A stretch of DNA of 64,000 nucleotides from Tetramitus jugosus (lineage: Eukaryota > Heterolobosea > Eutetramitea > Acrasida > Vahlkampfiidae). The stretch lies in assembly GCA_937625935.1 (NCBI GenBank), contig OW569373.1, positions 1 to 64,000 on the forward strand, in the 5' to 3' direction. The notes under the pieces were generated by a model. The model saw only the letters and a list, made by a program, of their open reading frames with translations. It was not told where the DNA came from and made no database searches. Shown in pieces: positions 26,176-37,668 of the stretch; the first letter of the stretch is position 1; the number at the start of each line of letters is the position of its first letter. The translations under genes were made by a program, and so were the position numbers.

Positions 26176-27997
26176 TTGTTTTTGCAGGCCAAATAAATTT
26201 CTATCGATGCAGATCGAGAGACCCTTTACACTTGATCAAAGTACAACAATGGTAATGAAAAGATTAATTCCTTCCTTAATAAATGCTGCATTCATTGATC
26301 TTGCAAAAACCTTTTGGATTTAGAAGAATTTCATACAATTCCTCGTTTTCACACAGGCGACAGCGAGTGTTTTGATAACTTCTCCAGCAGGTTTAGTGGG
26401 AATAAACTACTTCTGCAATACCTACTGGTAAATTTAATCAATCATTCATCAACGGAGAGATAACCCACTGGACTGAAAAAAGGTGGTAGAAAAAATTCAG
26501 ATCCCACATCAGTGAGCTCCAGAAATTCTTTCGATATCAGATAGACATTTCATTGAGTTTGATGTTGTTATCAAAGTGGAGTTTGATGGATGTAGTCTCA
26601 CAATCAGAGACATTAGAAGATCAAAAAGTACTTTCTTTTAATTTTTATCACATGCTCCTCCATATAATTGAGTGCAAGAGAACCACTATATCGAAGGAAA
26701 TCTCAAATATTTCACTCAATACAGGCATAGTTGTTTATCAGGTGGTACAAATAGGTGAAATCAAGGCAATATAGACGAACAACATTTTTGCATGACAAGA
26801 GTTGAATGGATTGATGCAACAAATGATTGAATGGATCGATAGTACAACAATGATTGAGAGTTGGACTGCTGGTGATTTGTGCTCTTTTGAATTCTGAGAG
26901 GCCTAGACTGGAAACATTCAATTCCATTGGAAAGGATAATAGTTACCAACCTACCACTAAGGTGCGTGGGGAAAATAATTAGGCTCATATTAAAATGAGC
27001 CTAATGTTGCATGTTTTCACTATTTCTTCTTGAGCATCAGCACTTCTACCATGCACTACACTGATGAATTTCGCCTTGAAATCCATGTTATTTGAGGTCA
27101 ATGATTGTTTGAGAACAGTTTGGCAATGCTATTCTCTATTGACACATAGCTTTCCTTGATACTAGGACGTTTTGTGAATGTCGACTCTCCTAATTTATCA
27201 CCTGAACAAATGCATAGCACTTCTGGTCTATGACACACATTATACTCATTTGGGTTGTTGGCAGTGAATTTGGTGACTGCAATCTCCCATCACAATCATT
27301 CTTTTTGGAGTCATTTATCTTGGGATCAGACAGGGGTTGGAAACACTAAATCGGGGGCATCACCGGACTTGCTGCGGGCGTTGGAAAATGAATTTTTACA
27401 AGTTTTTTCTTACAATTTCCAAAGAAATTAAAAAATTTAAACCTAAAAAATCTTTTATAACCTAAGCACTGTCGCTGGAACAAGAAATTCAGCAACACTC
27501 ACCTTCGAAACAACTTCACAAAAAAGGTGCCTACCCTACCAGAACAAACTTTAGGATATTCCAAAGTGCTGACTAAAATTGTTAATTTGTCTACATCAGA
27601 CTTCCCCTTATCTTCTAATACACATCAAAGGTGTTAAAAAAGTGTCTGAGGAACCCAAAGAATCCCTCAACTCGGTTTGTACAGAGGATTTGGGGATCAA
27701 AACCTTGAGTTCTACCTCCTATCAACGAATCGATGTCAGAGTCTCTAGATTTGTTCAGAGACAAGAATAGTGTCAATTACATTTTGAAGTTCTGTGGAGT
27801 TGATAGTTGCTCCTTGATTCCCTGATTCATGTCATATGATTAATTTACACTTGTTCATCACTCGAATTGATACTGAAATACAATGAGTGTTCAGACACTG
27901 TTCGTAGGACAGAAATTAGTCTCCTCTTTTCATACTTCGGGTCATCCAAATAATTCCAATAATCTACGACCACGAGTGTTCAAAATGCAAAAGTACG
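26176..27997. other. Gene-poor stretch
   Basis: About 1.8 kb hold only short frames without recognisable products. The only structure I found is the hairpin at 26978-27005. It borders the retroelement array. Confidence 0.5.
26978..27005. repeat. Perfect 11-bp hairpin
   Basis: ATTAGGCTCAT and ATGAGCCTAAT are exact inverted arms separated by six bases. It stands alone in a gene-poor region. It could be the end of a lost transposon, a 3' processing structure or a recombination relic. Confidence 0.6.
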
Positions 27998-28010
27998 TCG
28001 CCCACCGAGG
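27998..28010 (-). repeat. tRNA-Lys 3'-end duplicate (outermost target site copy)
   Basis: TCGCCCACCGAGG is identical to the 3' end of tRNA-Lys at 33243-33255. It marks the left edge of the array. Further copies lie at 30104-30116 and 30736-30748. On the minus strand it is followed after five bases by TTTT (27989-27992), the likely original Pol III terminator of the tRNA gene. Confidence 0.9.
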
Positions 28011-28273
28011 TTTATTTAGCCGCCAAATAAAGCGTTAATTGTTTTACAGTTTCCATCTCTCGTTTTTTTTTGTTTTTTAGAAAAAATCTCTAGTACAACT
28101 CCTTCACAGAATTGTAAACTTTCATAATTGTATATCCTCTATCCTCCTATATTTGGAGACAAATCCGACTTGCAACAATCTCGTTGTATACTCATTGTAT
28201 ACTGTCTACCTCAACATCATGGAGTTAAGGAAGTCAACTACCTGAGCCCTCGTTTTATTAATGACCCAACCAG

Positions 28274-28507
28274 TCAATGTTGTTTACGCAGCCAACTGTG
28301 AATGAATCGTTCCCAAGCAACACAATTATTTACAACAAACACATCCAAGACAACATCCAAAACCAGAACCTTGGTCAACAACTTCCTCAACCTATTGTAC
28401 ATATCTGTATTTTGACCTATTTTTACACCTGCACACTCTGTGGATGAGAGGATATATATGAATTCTTTGACTGATTTGAGAGCTTTTCTTGGTGCAACCT
28501 TCACCAT
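28274..28507 (-). pseudogene. Truncated GIY-YIG nuclease ORF, copy 1
   Basis: Seventy-seven codons remain, covering the IYILSS and KIG strands and the ER.IHSWLR helix of the nuclease domain. An extra A near 28500 separates it from the ancestral ATG, and the sequence after HSWLR jumps to the left-end region by deletion. Confidence 0.8.
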
Positions 28508-28746
28508 CGATCGTTATCAAGCAATTAACTGCAGACATAAAAAAACAAAAGAACAAAAGTAATTGTGATTGTTTATTGGGCAGTGAAACAACAGTTTATT
28601 TAAATAGGAATGTAGAGGACTTGATGGTTTGATGTTTTGATGTATTGCTTTGATGAGGAACTGTTTTTGTTTGTTTGTTAGTTTGTTTGGTTTTATTTAA
28701 GGAGTTGATGTAAGATAATTGCTTTTGGAACAAAACAACAATAGTA

Positions 28747-29985
28747 ATGGAAAACAATAAGTGGTGTGAAGCAGTAGGATACTTGATTGGAGCACTTAAT
28801 GCCATAGTTGATACCCAGAGACTCTCCTCTATCAAGAAACGATCAACCTCAGGAGCAACAGTGTGTCCCGGATCTAACATCCACCTTCCAGATGTTGCAA
28901 AGAAATGAGCAAGCTGCAAAGAATGATCAGATGAATGTTGTCGAGGACACTACCTATGTGGTTGAGGCAAGAGAAACAAGGAAAGGGGAACAGGACTGGT
29001 ATGGTCAGTCGACCATTCTGGCAATCGGCCGAGGAGATTCTCAAGACTGGGATGACTGTTAGATTCTATCAGCCCGAATCTGTTGTCCATAAGAAGTTTT
29101 CTCGAATGATCATCAACAAGATCAAAGGAGAGATGTGCCAGGTGATGGATTCTCGAGTGAACGAGTATGTAGCTAGCTGTGTGTTGATAGAGATACCAAA
29201 GGAGGAAGCGTATTTCATTGCTCCAACGAGAATCATACCCAGAGAGTCTGATCCTTCTCGACCCAGAGAAATCTTGGACTTCACTGAGCTTAACAAGTAC
29301 ATTCTAGAGGCGGATTGCAAACTACCAACACGCAAAGATCTAGTGTTGTTGGTCGAAAGATACTCCTATGCGGCCTCGATTGATATCAAATCGTGTTACA
29401 CCAACATCAAATTGGATGAGGCATTCCAGCCATATTGCTGTATTGGGTGGAGGAGCAAGGTCTACAAATTTACTCGAGTCCCTTTTGGAATCAAGTGTGC
29501 ACCGGCATGTTGCCAGCTGGTCACAAGCCATCTCTGCGAGGAGACTACAATAGTGTTGTATCTTGATGACTTCCTCTTGTTGGGCAACTCGGAGCAACAA
29601 GTATTATCTCGAGTTCGAGACCAAGTAACCACTCTCGAAGATAGAGGATTGCCTATCAATGTTACCAAGTCCATTCTGGTTCCAGCAAGAGCTAGAGTTT
29701 AGCGGATACAAGCTCTGTTTTGGAGGTCAAGTCAAGGGTGTTTACACTACAGATAAGCACTTGATGGATCTATCGTTGATGATCAAACTGATTTTGACGC
29801 AGGAGAGCGTTGAATTGAAGACCTGGCAAAGGTTCATGGGTAAGTATAACTGGTGTAGGGCTCTAAAGGAGGATGAGAAGGTGCATTCGAAGTTGGTTGC
29901 TCTGATGAATGAGCGAGACACCAACACTGATATGATAGAATTGTCGTTGACCATGTCGCTAGAGCAATGCTCCGCAATGTGGTAG
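28747..29985 (+). pseudogene. Reverse transcriptase ORF, copy 1, frameshifted
   Basis: This is nearly identical to the RT ORF of copy 3, including SIDIKSCYTNIKL and LDDFLLLG. Indels near 28825 and 29690 break it into three frames, and its last codons differ (..CSAMW). It cannot make a full protein. Confidence 0.85.
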
Positions 29986-30116
29986 CAAGATGTTCTCTTT
30001 CTTTTGATTTTTGATTGTATTTTATAGTGTGTTTATTGTAAATACATTGTAAAACTCGTTGTAAATAAAAAATCCGTCATAGAGCTCAGGAGACAAAAAG
30101 GCATCGCCCACCGAGG

Positions 30117-30735
30117 TTTATTTAGCCGCCAAATAAAGCGTTAATTGTTTTACAGTTTCTATCTTTTTTTTTTTAGAGAAAAAAAATCTCTAGTACAACT
30201 CCTTCACAGAATTGTAAACTTTCATAATTGTTGAATGGTTTTTGTGGTAATTGTATATCCTCTATCCTCCTACATTTTGGAGACAATCCGACAAGCAACA
30301 ATCTCGTTGTATACTCGTTGTATACTGTCTACCTCAACATCATGGAGTTAAGGAAGTCAACTACCTGAGCCCTCGTTTTATTAATGACCCAACCATTTAA
30401 TGTTGTAGCTTTGAGATCCTCCTTCACTGATTCTACTGTTGTATCCTTCAACAGAAGACCCACATTGTATGCGTCGAGTATACAATGAGTGTGAAGACTG
30501 CTGGCGAGGAACTCTTCGAACCATGATCGCGGAGACTCAGTAAAGTACAACAACACTCTCTCAAGACCAGGAACCGAGACAACCATAAGATGAGGATGTT
30601 GTGGCAATGAGACCTGTGGCACTTGATTCACAAAAATGGAGAAGTGTCTTTTATGGTGTGTTTATTGTAAATACATTGTAAAACTCGTTGTAAATAAAAA
30701 GTCCGTCAAAAAGCTCAGACGGAGACAAAAGGACA
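30117..30735 (+). mobile_element. tRNA-targeted retroelement, copy 2 (non-autonomous, internally deleted)
   Basis: This 619-base copy keeps both ends and the C-terminal 100 codons of the nuclease ORF (30329-30631, minus strand). Near 30648 it jumps directly to the right-end sequence, losing the nuclease core and the whole RT. It is flanked by exact 13-base tRNA duplicates at 30104-30116 and 30736-30748, so it either transposed in trans or was deleted after insertion. Confidence 0.85.
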
Positions 30736-30787
30736 TCGCCCACCGAGGTTTATTTAGCCGCCAAATAAAGCGTTAATTGTTTTACAG

Positions 30788-30818
<31 letters not shown>

Positions 30819-30970
30819 GAAAAAAAAATCTCTAGTACAACTCCTTCACAGAATTGTAAACTTTCATAATTGCTGAATGGTTTTTGTGGTAATTGTATAT
30901 CTTCTATCCTCCTATATTTTGGAGACAATCCGACAAGCAACAATCTCGTTGTATACTCATTGTATACTGT

Positions 30971-31657
30971 CTACCTCAACATCATGGAGTTAAGGAAGTC
31001 AACTACCTGAGCCCTCGTTTTATTAATGACCCAACCATTCAATGTTGTAGCTCCGAGATCCTCCCTCACTGATTCTACTGTTGTATCCTTCAACAGAAGA
31101 CCCACATTGTATGCGTCAAGTATACAATGAGTGTGGAGACTGCTGGCGAGGAACTCTTCGAACCATGATCGCGGAGACTCAGTAAAATACAACAACACTC
31201 TCTCAATACCAGGAACCGAGACAACCATAAGATGAGGATGTTGTGGTAATGAGACCTGCGGTACTTGATTCACAAAAATGGAGAAATACCTCGATCGAAC
31301 AGGTACAAAAGCATTGCTATCCAATTGCATTCCAAAGCAATGTTTCAAGCACCAGATTGCCTCCTCTCTATTGGTGTCAAATACCTCCCCAGCAATAAGC
31401 CTGTTACGCAGCCAACTGTGAATGAATCGTTCCCAAGCAACACAATTATTTACAACAAACACATCCAAGACCACATCCAAAACCAGCACCTTGGTCAACA
31501 ACTTCCTCAATCTATTGTACATATCTGTACTTTGACCTATTTTAGCACCTGCACACTCTGTGGATGAGAGGATATATATGCATTCTTTGATTGATTTGAG
31601 AGTTTTTCTTGGTGCAACCTCACCATTGATCGTTATCAAGCAATTAACTGCAGACAT
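30971..31657 (-). CDS. GIY-YIG (T5orf172/MUG113-type) nuclease of the retroelement
   Basis: The ATG at 31657 gives 228 residues. The N-terminal domain has IYILSSTECAGAKIG, in which the YIL and KIG strands replace GIY and YIG, then YNRLRKLL with the conserved Arg. It continues with NNCVAWERFIHSWLR holding the catalytic-type Glu, and GEVF, matching the GEWF of T5orf172 proteins. The C-terminal half (about 120-228) is unfamiliar and may bind the target or partner. By analogy with Penelope-like elements, which join a GIY-YIG nuclease to an RT, it probably nicks the tRNA gene to prime insertion. It is unusual in being encoded antisense to the RT. Residues essential for cleavage look present; activity is inferred. 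Confidence 0.8.
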   Translation of the reverse strand: MSAVNCLITINGEVAPRKTLKSIKECIYILSSTECAGAKIGQSTDMYNRLRKLLTKVLVLDVVLDVFVVNNCVAWERFIHSWLRNRLIAGEVFDTNREEAIWCLKHCFGMQLDSNAFVPVRSRYFSIFVNQVPQVSLPQHPHLMVVSVPGIERVLLYFTESPRSWFEEFLASSLHTHCILDAYNVGLLLKDTTVESVREDLGATTLNGWVINKTRAQVVDFLNSMMLR

Positions 31658-31870
31658 AAAAAAACAAAAGAACAAGTAATTGTGATTGTTTATTGGACAT
31701 TGAAACAACAGTTTATTTAAATAGGAATGTAGAGGACTTGATGGGTTGATGTTTTGATGTATTACTTTGATGAGGAACTGTTTTTGTTTGTTTGTTAGTT
31801 TGTTTGGTTTTATTTAAGGAGTTGATGTGATGTAAGATAATTGCTTTTGAAAAAAAAAACAACAATAGTA

Positions 31871-33151
31871 ATGGAAAACAATAAGTGGCGTGAAGCAGTA
31901 GGATACTTGATTGGAGCACTTAATGCCATAGTTGATGCCCAGAGACTCTCCTCTATGGAATCAAGAAATGATCAACCTCAGGAGCAACAGTGTGTCCCGG
32001 ATTTAACATCCACCATCCAGATGTTGAAAAGAAATGAGCAAGCTACAAGGAATGATCAGATGAATGTTGTCGAGGACACTACCTATGTGGTTGAGGCAAG
32101 AGAAACAAGGAAAGGCAAGGGAAAGGGGAAGAACAGGGCTGGTATGATCAGTCGACCATTCTGGCAATCGGCCGAGGAGATTCTCAAGACTGGGATGACT
32201 GTTAGATTCTATCAGCCCGAATCTGTTGTCCGTAAGAAGTTGTCTCGAATGATCATCAACAAGATCAAAGGAGAGATGTGCCAGGTGATGGATTCTCGAG
32301 TGAACGAGTATGTAGCTAGCGGTGTGTTGATAGAGATACCAAAGGAGGAAGCGTATTTCATTGCTCCAATGAGAATCATACCCAGAGAGTCTGATCCTTC
32401 TCGACCCAGAGAAATCTTGGATTTCACTGAGCTCAACAAGTACATTCTAGAGGCGGATTGCAAACTACCAACACGCAAAGATCTAGTGTTGTTGGTCGAA
32501 AGATACTCCTATGCGGCCTCGATTGATATCAAATCGTGTTACACCAACATCAAATTGGATGAGGCATTTCAGCCATATTGCTGTATTGGGTGGAGGAGCA
32601 AGGTCTACAAATTTACTCGAGTCCCTTTTGGAATCAAGTGTGCACCGGCATGTTGCCAGCTGGTCACAAGCCATCTCTGCGAGGAAACTACAATAGTATA
32701 TCTTGATGACTTCCTTTTGTTGGGCAACTCGGAGCAACAAGTATTATCTCGAGTTCGAGACCAAGTGACCACTCTCGAAGATAGAGGATTGCCTATCAAT
32801 GTTACCAAGTCCATTCTGGTTCCTCAGCAAGAGTTAGAGTTTAGCGGATACAAACTCTGTTTTGGAGGTGAAGTCAAGGGTGTTTACACTACAGATAAGC
32901 ACTTGATGGATCTATCGTTGATGATCAAACTGATTTTGACGCAGGAGAGCGTTGAATTGAAGACCTGGCAAAGGTTCATGGGTAAGTATAACTGGTGCAG
33001 GGCTCTAAAGGAGGATGAGAAGGTGCATTCGAAGTTGGTTGCGCTGATGAATGAGCGAGACACCAACTCTGATAGAATTGTAGTCGACCACGTCGCTAGA
33101 GCAATGCTCAGCAATATGGTAGCAAGATGTTCTCTTTCTTTTGATTTTTGA
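31871..33151 (+). CDS. Reverse transcriptase of the tRNA-targeted element
   Basis: The ATG at 31871 gives 426 residues. After a variable N-terminus and a basic KGKGKGKNR cluster, the RT palm shows SRPREILDFTELN, SIDIKSCYTNI (first Asp), FTRVPFGIKCAPACCQLV and IVYLDDFLLLG (Asp pair), then INVTKSIL and a thumb-like WQRFMGKYNW. The pattern resembles RTs of DIRS, LTR and hepadnavirus-type elements rather than LINEs or Penelope. It ends soon after the thumb, so no RNase H or integrase follows. It would copy the element RNA into DNA at the tRNA-Lys site. An upstream in-frame extension lacks an ATG. Confidence 0.85.
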   Translation: MENNKWREAVGYLIGALNAIVDAQRLSSMESRNDQPQEQQCVPDLTSTIQMLKRNEQATRNDQMNVVEDTTYVVEARETRKGKGKGKNRAGMISRPFWQSAEEILKTGMTVRFYQPESVVRKKLSRMIINKIKGEMCQVMDSRVNEYVASGVLIEIPKEEAYFIAPMRIIPRESDPSRPREILDFTELNKYILEADCKLPTRKDLVLLVERYSYAASIDIKSCYTNIKLDEAFQPYCCIGWRSKVYKFTRVPFGIKCAPACCQLVTSHLCEETTIVYLDDFLLLGNSEQQVLSRVRDQVTTLEDRGLPINVTKSILVPQQELEFSGYKLCFGGEVKGVYTTDKHLMDLSLMIKLILTQESVELKTWQRFMGKYNWCRALKEDEKVHSKLVALMNERDTNSDRIVVDHVARAMLSNMVARCSLSFDF

Positions 33152-33235
33152 TTGTATTTTATGGTGTGTTTATTGTAAATACATTGTAAAACTTGTTGTA
33201 AATAAAAAGTCCGTCAAAAAGGCTCAGGCGGAGAC

Positions 33236-33239
33236 AAAA
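33236..33239 (-). terminator. Pol III terminator supplied by the element
   Basis: On the minus strand TTTT begins four bases after the tRNA-Lys discriminator. It lies inside the right end of copy 3 (GACAAAAGG). The same A-run is present at the right ends of copies 1 and 2, so each insertion gives the rebuilt tRNA gene a terminator. Confidence 0.75.
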
Positions 33240-33243
33240 GGAT

Positions 33244-33316
33244 CGCCCACCGAGGGGCTCGAACCCTCGACCACAAGGTTAAGAGCCTTGCGCTCTACCG
33301 ACTGAGCTAGACGGGC
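33244..33316 (-). tRNA. tRNA-Lys (anticodon CTT)
   Basis: A complete cloverleaf of 73 bases can be drawn. Acceptor GCCCGTC pairs with GGTGGGC allowing two G-T pairs, the discriminator is G, the anticodon loop is CTCTTAA, and the T-arm is GAGGG-TTCGAGC-CCCTC. The last 12 bases are part of the 13-base target repeat, so the gene is intact although three elements have inserted at this point. No intron. Confidence 0.95.
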
Positions 33317-33359: not shown

Positions 33360-33740
33360 ACTCGAATCGTTGCTAAAATGACAACTCCTGTTGTTTGTGA
33401 GTATGAGAACCCACACTCTGTTGTCTGGACCACAACCCCAAGAGGACTGCGGCAAGGAGGTCGTCATCGAATGTAGCAACCATCGGAACAAAACCAGAGC
33501 AATAGAGCAACAAAGGTACAAGGCAAGGTGATTCTTTGTCTCCCACGGATTATGTGATAGTTCAGCTACCAAGCCATGAGCCAGAAGATATGGAATGTGG
33601 CTTACGTAGACGACTGTAACCTGTTCAGTGATAAACTAAAGGATATTCAGACGATGGGCAATGATATGTATGACACTCAAGGGATGGGACTAAACATGCA
33701 CCCACATATATTGTGGACGAACCGACATGTGTAGACCTTT
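33360..33740 (+). pseudogene. LINE reverse transcriptase fragment upstream of tRNA-Lys
   Basis: The sequence around 33575-33715 parallels the LINE at 35880-36040: ATGAGCCAGAAGATATGGAA matches MSQ.IWN, followed by AYVDDCNLF (the YxDD motif) and a Met-His-Pro segment. Before it, remnants of the GxGTRQGDSLS region can be seen near 33510-33545. Frames are broken. It begins within about 50 bases of the 5' end of tRNA-Lys and points away from it. Confidence 0.65.
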
Positions 33741-34183
33741 CTATGTGCATGCAATATGGGCGGAAGATATGATAAATCTGAGAAACGTGGAAATTTTGTG
33801 ATTCTTGATAGTAAGTTCTACAGGTTACATGCTGCAAATCTTTTGAAAAATGATGTTAATGGAACACAGCATATTCAAGTCGTAAAATGGTCAGATGGTT
33901 CACAAATTGACAAACCCTCATATTAATTATTCACCAATAAAGTTCGAATTTCAAACTTTTAACATTACCATAATCTCGTTATCAAATGTAATTACTGTGA
34001 TGGTGTAGCAAAGGATCTTGATGATGAAGAAATAAATGAGTGATAAGATTATTTCTATATATATAATCAACACTTTTCCCGCATAATTCAACCACAAGAA
34101 TGAAGCTTAATTTTCCTCTTGAACAACAATTCTTATTTTTGAAAACTCACGCCCATCATAAAAGGTAAATAACTAGAATAAAA
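33741..34183. other. Gap with a small uncertain ORF
   Basis: A 56-codon frame runs from ATG 33756 to TAA 33926 (it includes KRGNFVILDSKFYRL). It may be a fragment of an unknown gene. The rest is AT-rich and I see nothing else in it. Confidence 0.3.
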
Positions 34184-34254
34184 TGCATCTGCCGGGATTC
34201 GAACCCGGGTCGCAGCGATGGCAACGCTGCATGATACCCCTACACTACAGATGC
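34184..34254 (-). tRNA. tRNA-Gly (anticodon GCC)
   Basis: A 71-base cloverleaf: acceptor GCATCTG/CAGATGC, D-arm TAGTGTAGGGGTA, anticodon loop TTGCCAT, T-arm CCGGG-TTCGAAT-CCCGG, discriminator A. A TTTT terminator follows directly (34180-34183). LINE sequence begins just upstream of its 5' end. Confidence 0.95.
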
Positions 34255-34319
34255 TTGTGTCGAATGAATATCTCCTTTCAAATTGAGCACAAGCGCAAAA
34301 AAGCGCGAACAAAAAACAC

Positions 34320-35238
34320 ATGGAAACAAACGCAAACATTCCATCCTCAGCTGAGGCTAGGGAGTACTCCCGTTGAAGGGTATGCGGTATGGACAGTACA
34401 GAAGGTTGGGAGTAGCATCAACAAAAATGAGGTGGTGATCAAAGGTTCACAATGTCATAACACGGCACCAACAATTGCAAGAATGATCGGTACGAGATAC
34501 AAGGGTTGGGTCACCAGAGCCCATGTGAGAAGGTGGGAAAAAGGTCCGTTCATTGCTTGGGTCATGTGAAGGACGACAAACTGTATGAGTTTGTTGAAAC
34601 TTATAATGATTCAAAAAGAATCATGAATGCCTATGCCTCCATCAAGAGGGAAGTTGACGCGGAGAAAAAGTTGGTCATCCACAAGGTATTGGGAAAGTCA
34701 AGGGACTACATAGCCAAACTGGTCGGAGAAGAAAAGGTCAGACATGTTGAGGTCAAGGGCAACACTGCGTTTGTAACCATGACTTCTCAGTCTTATGCTC
34801 AAGCTGTCATAGGAGATAAGCAAATTTCAGCAGAGAAAAGTCCATACATACAAAGAAGCCAAGATCCTGTGAAGCTACTAACGAGAAAGTTTCAGAGAAC
34901 TACTGACACTTTGAAACAACAAATGGAGGAACTAATGAAGAGTCAGACAACTGGAGATGGAAATAAGTCTGATAGAGGAAAAGAACAGTGGGAAAAAGGC
35001 TGCCAAAGCAGTGAAAAGATCTAGTCGCCCAATCCAACCTACTATACTCACTGTCCTTGACTCTGAAGAAAAAGGGGAGGAAGATGCAACAATGGAAGCT
35101 GAAGTTATCACCCTAGTGCCCTGTGAAGGTTCTCGGCATAACCTTGACAGGGACATGACAGCAAACGGAGAGAATAGCGATGTGACCATGTTAGTAGAGA
35201 ACGGTGAGGTAGTTCCACGCTCCACAAAATGTCAGTGA
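34320..35238 (+). pseudogene. LINE ORF1 remnant
   Basis: Several overlapping frames together form a basic, hydrophilic protein. Segments such as VEGYAVWTVQKVG, KLYEFVETYNDSKRIMNAY and HVEVKGNTAFVTMTSQSYA are typical of an RNA-binding-type ORF1, followed by Lys/Glu-rich tail sequence. At least three frameshifts separate the segments (near 34380, 34545 and 34960). No zinc knuckles are visible. Confidence 0.5.
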
Positions 35239-35285
35239 GCCACCCGATGAACAAAATATGGAAGAACGAAAGAAGCTCTTAATTA

Positions 35286-36870
35286 GTGCTAGACGAGCTA
35301 AGAGGAGAGAGCGTGCTCTCTCGGACAGCCAAGCACTCATTTACAACTACGCCGTACGAAGGGAGGACACCAAGAAAAGAGAATGGCAAGCGTGGAACCA
35401 AGAAGGGTGATGCTACTAACCCGGCTAACTACAGACCAATATGCCTCCTGAGTACTGTGTCGAAACTGTACACCAAGTTGATTAATAGAAGAATCTCTGT
35501 TGCTGCTGAGACAGGAGGGATTTTCTCTAATGTTCAAGGTGGCGGCAGAAAGTTCCGGGACATTCGGGAGAAGCTGTCCATAGTAAGAGGAATCATTGAC
35601 CATGCCAACAGGGAAAACAAGCAACTGTTCCTGCTTTTGACAGACATATCTAAAGCGTTTGATTCGGTACCACCCAACGCAATCAAATTCTTTGAATTCC
35701 CTGACAATGTTGTCAGATTGGTGAGTGGAATGGTGGAGAACAATTTTGCTGGTGTTCTGACGAGAGCTGTCTCAAGAAGGTTTCCTATCGGAAAGGGAAC
35801 AAGGCAAGGTGACTCTTTATCACCTACCACATACATTCTAGTGCACCACGGTGTTGATGTATGTTGACAGGAAGGTACAAGGTTACCCGAGCTATGTCTC
35901 AAGGATTGTGGAACGCGGCCTACATCGACGATTGCAATTTGTTCGCCGAATCCAGGGCAGATATTGAGCGTGCTGCACAGGCGATGTCGGAGGTTCTATC
36001 GTCACTACGGATGTCGATGCACCCTGACAATCTTGAACTGTATGTGCGACAAATGGAGAAGGACACAGGGTATGATATAGAGGTGGATGGAACGGTTGTT
36101 CCCGCGAGAGACAGTTCTCGAGTCTTTCGAGCACTGGGTCTTTTCACCAACCTAAAGGGGAATACAAAACAACAAATCGAGCAGGCATGGAACAAGTCCC
36201 AAAGAGTGGTGACTAGGTTGAAAATGATGAAGCTTACTCCCAGACAGGTGGCAAGAGTAGTGAACACATGTATTCACCCTTGAAACCAAGACGTCTGAGT
36301 TCACTGATTGGACTGATGGATGGATACTCAAGGTGAACAGACTGGGTAGGATGCTGGTCAAGCACGGATCGGTAGCAATGAAACCCATTCCCTCCGAACT
36401 GCTCCCGGTCAGCAGTGATCATGGATCGATCGGTCTGAACGATACAGAAGAAACTATCACGACTCAAACCGCCTGGTTTGTCGGTACCATGGTGTCTGGT
36501 AAGAGAGATACCGAAGAGAAACAGCTGTTGCTTGACACGCTTGAGGAGATCAAGCAAAAACAAACATTCCAATCAGAGAATGTATTTCAGTCAAGCAAAG
36601 GACCGAAAGAATCTCGGGAATGGGGCTCTACTGGCTACAAGCTGATGCAATACGAAGCGGTGATGACTTCAGCTTTCTGAAGTACCCACACAGGATCAAT
36701 AGGCAAGGGGAGTGGTTCTATGCTCAAGTGCGTAGCGGTACTCTTCACACAAAAGAGACAAAGCGCTGTCTATATGGCAAGGATGGCTTCTATCAACCGG
36801 ATTTCCCTCGCGTCCCCGTCTCCGGAGCGAATCTCCGAACTCGAACCTTCGACTCCGTCTACTGTCGATG
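35286..36870 (+). pseudogene. LINE ORF2 reverse transcriptase, broken
   Basis: The RT signature of non-LTR elements is clear: NYRPICLLSTVSKLYTKLI, LLLTDISKAFDSVPP (first Asp), GKGTRQGDSLSP and AYIDDCNLF (Asp pair). Downstream come the C-terminal region with AWFVGTMVSGKRDTEEKQLL and GEWFYAQVRSGTLHTKE, matching the better kept copy at 48.5-49.8 kb. The frame breaks near 35860, 36280 and 36650, and the zinc-finger tail is degraded. Confidence 0.8.
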
Positions 36871-37020
36871 ACTGAGTCACCCTAGAGCTAACCAACAACA
36901 CCATTGATGAGGATGCGTAACAGAGCGATCCTCGAGCTAGTATTGAACACCTTAGAGGTGTTCAAGAAAGCCAAGAAGGAGATTGCTGTCCAAGCAATCT
37001 TGGTGGACCGTGCAAGAAGC

Positions 37021-37668
37021 ACAACCACCCATGAAGATCCTGTTGAGTTGGATCTCAGTAACCCGGACTGCGAGTTATAGAGTTGTCAACTTAACATACA
37101 TAAGAAACGATCAGCACGTGTTACCATTGGTGACACAGCTGCCAACAAGATCCCGACCAGGTTGGTCCCTATCAAGTCAGTTGTTCTCACCCAAAAGATA
37201 AATACAAGTTGCGCAACGATACAAACGCAGAAATCAGCGCATACTTCGAAAGGAAGAGTGACCCTGTAATCGACCTTTACGATAGATTTTCCAGGATGAA
37301 AGAACAATTGACAGAGTATATAGACCCCTTGCAAGCCAGAGTAGAACAACGTTGTGTACAATATGAGAATTGCAAGAGGAGAGTCCAGATGTAATTCTTT
37401 TATTTGATGAGGAAAATTTATTCACTCTAGTAGAAACAATGTTGAGAATTAACTGCCCAAATTCGCAGATATTTCCATTGAGGGGCAGTGTTAACTTTCC
37501 AGAAGATATGGGTCATGAGGAAAATTGTTCCGTTCTACGATGGTTTCTGAGGCTCTAATTTAGCAAAGGAGCGAACAAAATAACTCCGTCAGGTTTCTCT
37601 TCAGAGCCAGTGGACAAAATCGAAAACTCAGTGACCAACAACAGCAACGACGGACAGAAAACAAAACG
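37021..37668. other. Unassigned stretch after the LINE
   Basis: A frame of about 70 codons (37180-37394) with NDTNAEISAYFERKSDPVID and a following coiled-coil-like segment looks protein-like but matches nothing I know. It could be a gene fragment or LINE tail. The last 100 bases form the leader of the AGMO gene. Confidence 0.3.

Follow-up and report, generated by a model that had tools for sequence, protein, structure and literature searches.

The window, that is, the whole stretch of 64,000 nucleotides of Tetramitus jugosus DNA analysed here (contig OW569373.1, positions 1 to 64,000), carries a tandem array of short retroelement units at the 3' end of a tRNA-Lys(CTT) gene (Table 1). The surveyed genome comprises 26.35 Mb in 56 contigs, which are given here as C numbers, and the locus of the window is C30. 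Four exact copies of TCGCCCACCGAGG were located at 27998, 30104, 30736 and 33243, as the initial annotation had reported. With one mismatch allowed, 0.02 copies of this pattern are expected by chance, and none of 100 shuffled sequences reached four. The last copy finishes a whole tRNA-Lys(CTT) gene, which scored 66.7 bits with the Rfam tRNA model. The 13-base repeat does equal tRNA nucleotides 62–73 plus one base, as had been claimed, but 12 nt is the safer length for the duplicated target, because C35 and C37 lack the base after the tRNA on the tRNA side and six unoccupied genes carry T or C in place of A.

The copies separate three tandem units, here E1 to E3. This part of the earlier description stood, except that E2 itself does not encode a reverse transcriptase (RT). 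In E1, the RT is found in the frames 28935–29702 and 29659–29985, remnants of a gene for a GIY-YIG-type protein lie on the minus strand, and the unit is 94.7% identical to E3 over 1847 columns but lacks E3 body positions 300–656.

Table 1. Positions of the features of the array in the window
Feature	Position	Strand	Remarks
Native tRNA trailer outside the array	27988..27997	-	Reads ACGTACTTTTG on the tRNA strand when base 27998 is included; like the trailers of unoccupied genes, unlike element right ends
Outermost 12-nt target copy (tRNA nt 62–73)	27999..28010	-	
Element E1, farthest from the tRNA	28011..30104	+	Internal deletion; RT split over two frames
12-nt target copy, E1/E2 boundary	30105..30116	-	
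Element E2, deletion derivative	30117..30736	+	620 bp; E3 body 1–537 + 2405–2494; no RT
12-nt target copy, E2/E3 boundary	30737..30748	-	
Element E3, complete unit adjoining the tRNA	30749..33243	+	2.5 kb; both reading frames open
Left end of E3, TTTATTTAGCCGCC	30749..30762	+	
Open reading frame (ORF), GIY-YIG-type protein	30971..31708	-	245 aa open frame; likely start MSAVNC gives 228 aa, as in P0005
ORF, RT	31841..33151	+	436 aa open frame; first ATG 31871
TTTT on the tRNA strand, putative element-borne RNA polymerase III (Pol III) terminator	33236..33239	-	AAAA four bases past the tRNA 3' end
12-nt target copy within the intact tRNA gene	33244..33255	-	
Intact tRNA-Lys(CTT) gene	33244..33316	-	

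Use of the target in the genome

The exact 13-mer occurs 25 times genome-wide, 18 times within tRNA-Lys(CTT) genes and seven times as the left border of an element (C8, C15, C23, C35 and three in the window). All seven exact copies located outside tRNA genes are followed by the left end TTTATTT(A/T)GCCGCC. Twenty-five tRNA-Lys(CTT) genes match a 63-nt query with zero mismatches, and every one of them terminates in TCGGTGGGCG. An element right end stands directly behind seven of these intact genes (two on C8 and one each on C15, C23, C30, C35 and C40), and an eighth occupied case, on C37, involves a degenerate tRNA-Lys copy. Among the remaining 18 genes, 17 had no element end, and the flank of the one at C43:105k (L024) was vaguely similar and could not be assigned.

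A whole gene is thus left at the occupied loci, in agreement with the proposal that insertion takes place within the T-arm and restores the tRNA 3' end. The proposed harmless strategy agrees with the 3' end being kept in 25 of 25 tRNA-Lys(CTT) genes, and the formation of the tandem array by repeated use of one site was likewise supported. The idea of a dedicated tRNA-Lys target was incomplete, as relatives were also found at tRNA-Lys(TTT) 3' ends and at a tRNA-Trp 5' end.

No copy at an unrelated site, which would have refuted the initial annotation, was found in the genome among the copies with a readable tRNA-side junction, and 40 weak left-end-like matches lie outside that count. The left-end search gave eight exact matches: seven adjoin the 13-mers, and the eighth is the inverted C40 end. 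The weaker matches comprised three with one mismatch (one of them known, at C23) and 38 with two, and the reversed control pattern gave six. The copies sit at one sequence with a constant target duplication, and the element is in this sense a target-specific retroelement, with the 40 weak matches as a caveat.

Junctions and terminator

The left junction, CGAGG followed by TTTATTT, was identical in all eight readable copies, while an older unit at C23 has an altered target copy. On the right junction, the bases adjoining the tRNA vary, and AT, ATG, ATGT, ATAAT or TGT was found before CCTTTT.

It had also been proposed that the right end of the element brings its own Pol III terminator, and the comparison of trailers bore this out at the locus of the window. 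The unit trailers are ATGCCTTTTTGTCTCC (E1), ATGTCCTTTTGTCTCC (E2) and ATCCTTTTGTCTCC (E3), whereas the outermost, native trailer is ACGTACTTTTGC; examples from unoccupied tRNA-Lys(CTT) genes are ATGTAC.. and ACGTCG... Because the three unit trailers share the element type and the trailer of the outermost copy differs, the terminator here is element-borne. Three loci have a clearly native outer trailer, and the tRNA-side trailer differs from it at the window and at C40 and agrees with it at C8 over ATGTCCTTTTG. The outer trailers of C23 and C35 were dropped as native examples, because C23 runs into an element-like right end and C35 shares CTCCGCCTG with element right ends; these two outer flanks may belong to older units.

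Encoded proteins

The RT of the window matches Pfam RVT_1 (E 5e-19), with YLDD present. Neither an RNase H nor a methyltransferase after the RT was found in it, RVT_1 being its sole Pfam domain above the cut-off, and the controls P0014–P0016 do show RNase H. This RT has few database relatives: P0001 matches it at 48% across 97% of the query, P0002 at 45% across 55%, and P0003 and P0004 at 26%. A profile search added P0007–P0011 (41–63%) and Ty3-like proteins, with E values of 5e-16 for P0003, 2e-14 for P0004 and 6e-8 to 4e-5 for the Ty3-like P0014–P0016. By eye P0003 and P0004 look DIRS-like, and Pfam finds only RVT_1 in either. The relatives in the PDB, by sequence and by fold (the best 50 of 480 fold matches), are the RTs of cauliflower mosaic virus (CaMV), foamy virus, Moloney murine leukaemia virus (MMLV), human immunodeficiency virus (HIV) and Ty3. 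The structure model of the RT (predicted local distance difference test (pLDDT) 63, template modelling (TM) score ~0.4) served only for the RT type. These profile matches and PDB relatives indicate that the RT is of the Ty3/DIRS type.

The second protein of the window matches T5orf172 with an E value of 3e-5 (best 1e-7 among its relatives), and all eight aligned members match both T5orf172 and MUG113. The Y, R and E positions, which we take to be those of the GIY-YIG active-site motifs, are invariant in the members. P0005 (96%) and P0006 (56%) were the only database matches, and a profile search of the PDB gave three matches at E 0.35–0.97, none significant.

The RT and GIY-YIG genes stand side by side and in divergent orientation at all eight places that have both (C30, C15, C40, C16, C23, C14, C28 and C35), and the pair is damaged to a varying degree at most of them. 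In the complete unit, the RT gene is directed towards the tRNA and the GIY-YIG gene in the opposite direction. Both genes are open at C30, C15 and C40, of which C15 differs ahead of the RT start. The GIY-YIG gene is open at C16, where the RT is interrupted near its start, and at C23, where the RT has an internal gap. In the fused frame of C14 (L064 777–1886, minus strand; 370 aa), the GIY-YIG part is joined directly to an RT fragment, and this frame is a natural chimera of pieces of two units.

A viral or prokaryotic origin was rejected. Pattern matches were found five times in viral contigs, without any encoded relative, and 46 times in prokaryote contigs, with one; this single relative has 27% identity and comes from a 3.7-kb contig of a metagenome-assembled genome.

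Array history and sequence constraint

Compared with E3, the tRNA-proximal unit of C15 is 99.2% identical, E1 and E2 are ~95% identical, and the distal piece of C15 is 88–92% identical. At C23, the proximal unit is 92–95% and the distal unit 73–83% identical to E3. The tRNA-proximal unit therefore looks the youngest in three arrays (C30, C15 and C23), which is the order that serial insertion at a rebuilt site predicts.

Mosaic units with pieces from different subfamilies were observed at C40, C15a, C8a and C8b. The C40 unit is 85% identical to that of the window in the GIY-YIG gene and 60% in the RT, and C15a runs into an apparent RT piece of another subfamily. C8a and C8b have one breakpoint pair and one ~175-nt foreign piece (98% identity) in common, which suggests that a non-autonomous derivative was mobile.

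Constraint was seen in both genes. The ratio of non-silent to silent substitution rates (dN/dS) of the GIY-YIG gene was 0.16–0.18 for C23 against the window and C15, and 0.35–0.37 in comparisons with C40. For the RT, it was 0.096 between C16 and C14 (dS 0.42) and 0.09–0.10 for the window and C15 against C16, where silent sites are near-saturated; the remaining RT pairs were saturated at silent sites.

At C40 (L023 2529–2738), the first ~215 nt of an element are inverted and carry 8 nt of the tRNA duplication. This inversion was not used as evidence of twin priming, as it could also have arisen later.

Other tRNA genes and neighbouring elements

Two of the six tRNA-Lys(TTT) genes (C7 and C18) have element remnants behind their 3' end, with 88–90% DNA identity to E3 and with their left ends lost. 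A second family, with 69% (RT) and 61% (GIY-YIG) amino-acid identity, sits at tRNA-Trp on C16. There, a 25-nt repeat (11 nt of leader plus tRNA-Trp nucleotides 1–14) flanks the unit, with the intact tRNA on the right, and a second, more decayed unit begins at another copy of the 14 nt of tRNA-Trp. Second-family copies lie less than 5 kb from three of the seven tRNA-Trp genes (C14, C16 and C28). The C16-type leader is also found at C14 and C28, and the other four genes have a different leader type; the 11-nt leader stretch is either element-borne or part of a longer duplication.

The 37 RT and 28 GIY-YIG matches were grouped by eye into 14 places, matches up to ~10 kb apart being joined. At ten of them (C30, C15, C40, C23, C35, C7, C18, C37, C8:418k and C16), the element directly adjoins a tRNA gene or a part of one that has been duplicated. 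At two (C14:166k and C28), a tRNA-Trp gene lies within 5 kb with no readable junction, and at two (C14:368k and C24), small RT fragments lie no more than 0.5 kb from tRNA-Ala and tRNA-Thr, with no duplication. We do not claim tRNA-Ala (C14:368k), tRNA-Thr (C24) or tRNA-Tyr (C16:354k) as targets, as these places have RT fragments only and matches of a chance length of 10–11 nt.

A second, unrelated element of the non-LTR (long terminal repeat) type is present in the window at 33384–37218, with RVT_1 at 35286–35867. It starts 68 bp upstream of the 5' end of tRNA-Lys, is directed away from this gene and also occurs in L009, L015, L017, L018, L035 and L077. Its 77-nt start was found ~72–87 bp upstream of Lys, Asn, Thr and Trp tRNA genes (L009, L015, L018 and L077). 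This family apparently targets sites upstream of tRNA genes and resembles TRE5 of Dictyostelium in this respect. Related sequence is present in L078 (C14:161700–165500; ~58% over 1.2 kb) and in L026 (75% over 648 nt), in the latter case just upstream of a tRNA-Lys gene.

On C53, five 18S rRNA 3' ends alternate +, -, +, -, + at steps of ~17–25 kb, and a sixth is on C55. It suggests that the rDNA units are inverted or palindromic. A fragment of a host S-adenosylhomocysteine hydrolase has its closest match in PDB 5v96, of Naegleria fowleri, with an identity of roughly 80% by eye, which hints at a heterolobosean-like amoeba.

Discussion

Taken together, the sequence data suggest a short target-specific retroelement family that probably inserts by GIY-YIG nicking and target-primed reverse transcription. 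The GIY-YIG protein would nick the tRNA-sense strand just past nucleotide 73; its nick on the opposite strand would lie 12 nt inward, within the T-arm. The 3'-OH at the tRNA end would prime the RT, the element RNA would be copied from its right (3') end, and second-strand synthesis would duplicate the 12 nt. New units would join next to the tRNA; because the tRNA is rebuilt at insertion, the site would be reusable, and arrays would result. The right end of the element would have to carry the terminator, because copying would begin exactly at the tRNA end. The second family would do the mirror image of this at the tRNA-Trp 5' end. A target-primed mechanism is favoured because no recombinase was found; the pairing of the two genes, the mosaic units, the varying junction on the tRNA side and the repeated use of a rebuilt site also speak for it. 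The constant left junction, together with the variable tRNA-side bases and the mosaics, would point to RNA-type copying.

Several observations weigh against this reading. The two new one-mismatch and 38 two-mismatch left-end matches compare with Markov expectations of 0–1 and 8–10, so insertions elsewhere may exist. The variable right junctions could stem from later mutation. The trailers at C7 and C18 (AACTCC and AACACG) are nearer to that of another Lys(TTT) gene (AACTCG) than to the Lys(CTT) element end, and the tRNA-Trp duplication is clear at C16 only, the copies at C14 and C28 being separated from the tRNA by other sequence. The assignment of the GIY-YIG protein rests on profile matches, its structure model being unusable (pLDDT 35). 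GIY-YIG homing enzymes leave 2-nt overhangs, shorter than the 12-nt staggered cuts proposed here. The divergent genes are also awkward, because the GIY-YIG mRNA would be complementary to a full-length sense RNA. Constraint was weak in other pairs (dN/dS 0.47 for GIY-YIG, C16–C28; 0.37 for RT, C40–C35), and the window and C15 showed no silent excess (RT, 2.8 silent to 14.2 non-silent, ratio 1.35; GIY-YIG, 3.5 to 20.5, ratio 1.65). Most of the 17 (RT) and 24 (GIY-YIG) differences of this last pair fall before the likely start codons, according to the alignments.

The initial annotation likened the insertion to that of phages and integrative elements of bacteria. This analogy holds for the outcome and not for the mechanism, because no tyrosine recombinase was found: the Pfam phage-integrase profile (PF00589) gave no match genome-wide and matched 14 of 14 prokaryotic controls, although divergent eukaryotic forms could escape it. 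The same result bears on the integration of cDNA by a DIRS-like tyrosine recombinase (YR), with the 12-nt repeat as a shared recombination core as in bacterial tRNA islands, which we consider unlikely. Such a route would agree with the RT having its closest relatives beyond its own group in P0003 and P0004, judged by eye to be DIRS-type, and with the resemblance of the element ends to the native trailer beyond the core; a tRNA 3' end as target with a regenerated gene is, moreover, its classic outcome. The recombinase search is also weak in that Pfam detects no recombinase domain in P0004, whose YR-like end is a reading by eye, and in that the profile may miss eukaryotic forms. However, P0004 as a query matches only the element RT family (10 of 10), with none past its residue 302, the complete unit has no recombinase frame, and the tRNA-side junctions differ in length.

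It is improbable that the units are homing-type DNA elements, in which the GIY-YIG enzyme breaks an empty tRNA gene, the break is repaired by copying an occupied locus, and the RT is accessory. GIY-YIG enzymes are classic homing enzymes, and the identity of 25 tRNA-Lys(CTT) genes over 63 nt would give one homologous flank; yet homing destroys its target, which is rebuilt and reused here. The outer flanks also differ among the loci, with no visible co-converted tract past the trailer, and the RT is conserved between the families.

A Penelope-like element that exchanged its RT and kept its GIY-YIG nuclease and tandem habit is very improbable. The combination of GIY-YIG and RT, the tandem arrays and the proposed target priming are common to both, according to the available parts of PMC11167929 and PMC3846280. 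The RT is not telomerase-like, however: the matches listed are retroviral, Ty3 and caulimovirus RTs (18 of 18 in each sequence listing and the best 50 of 480 fold matches). The nuclease is a separate gene on the opposite strand, and no Rfam ribozyme matched in the array.

A tandem duplication of one original insertion, or an assembly artefact, would suit similar units lying head to tail but is hardly credible with units that are ~5% divergent and have different deletions, and with six further tRNA-Lys(CTT) genes, spread over five contigs, that carry an element (two on C8 and one each on C15, C23, C35 and C40), besides the Lys(TTT) and Trp loci. Reverse transcription primed by tRNA-Lys at a primer-binding site was rejected, as the 13-mer has no TGG for pairing to CCA and it is the tRNA gene itself where the repeats are found.

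Comparison with known elements

None of the classes tested (DIRS, Penelope, LTR and Dada) accommodates the element, which departs from each of them in a defining feature. We tentatively put it forward as a possible new order-level eukaryotic retroelement, in which a Ty3/DIRS-type RT without RNase H or recombinase is combined with a divergent T5orf172-type GIY-YIG nuclease. Its families would use different tRNA ends (Lys 3' and Trp 5'), bring along the corresponding part of the Pol III control region that is lost, and rebuild the host gene each time. Among the matches listed from open-licence papers, we found neither a retroelement that lies within tRNA genes and restores their end nor an RT/GIY-YIG pair of this kind.

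R2 and other target-specific non-LTR elements use an exact site in a multicopy RNA gene, with a nuclease and target priming. The present element would work alike; it differs from R2 in RT type, nuclease type and target, and R2 interrupts the rRNA unit. Ty1 and Ty3 are tRNA-associated retrotransposons. Compared with Ty3-group LTR elements, E3 has no terminal direct repeat save the target copy, and its frames contain neither an RNase H nor an integrase domain.

With DIRS-like elements (DIRS1, PAT and kangaroo), the element has a Ty3-related RT in common, and an inverted second gene is known in the PAT group, as far as the available part of PMC3266345 describes them. Unlike them, it has no detected tyrosine recombinase, RNase H or methyltransferase, and it has a GIY-YIG-type gene and a 12-nt target duplication in tRNA genes. 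Among the 25 longest of 67 inverted pairs, which do not cover low similarity, none joins the two ends of a unit. Besides the other RT type, the element differs from the Penelope-like ones in its two divergent genes instead of one ORF, in its exact gene-specific target and in that no hammerhead ribozyme was found.

Target choice at the level of single RNA genes is also known from the Dada DNA transposons, whose families are each specific to one tRNA or snRNA gene, with tandem insertions in U1 (PMC3706591, in the part available). Dada elements are, however, DNA transposons with 6–7 bp duplications inside the gene, while the present element is RT-coding and the tRNA end is rebuilt; a Dada transposase is not among the significant Pfam domains of the complete unit (RT and GIY-YIG only), no Dada profile having been run. 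TRE5, TRE3, DGLT-A, Skipper-2 and Tyl6 likewise use tRNA genes as safe sites in compact genomes but, by the available part of PMC5911963, insert ~5–150 bp upstream or downstream and not within the tRNA sequence.

With its separate nuclease, compact RT and rebuilt multicopy target, the 2.5-kb element would be a natural model of harmless, site-specific, RNA-templated insertion, and the families at two opposite tRNA ends allow one to ask which region of the GIY-YIG protein recognises the target. Phages and integrative elements at bacterial tRNA genes rely on site-specific recombinases acting on DNA. The outcome in such bacterial islands is the same as here, namely a duplicated tRNA 3' end, a regenerated gene and tandem arrays, while no recombinase was found in the present case. 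If the proposed mechanism is true, a eukaryotic retroelement has reached the solution of bacterial integrative elements with different enzymes: it enters a tRNA gene and returns it intact.

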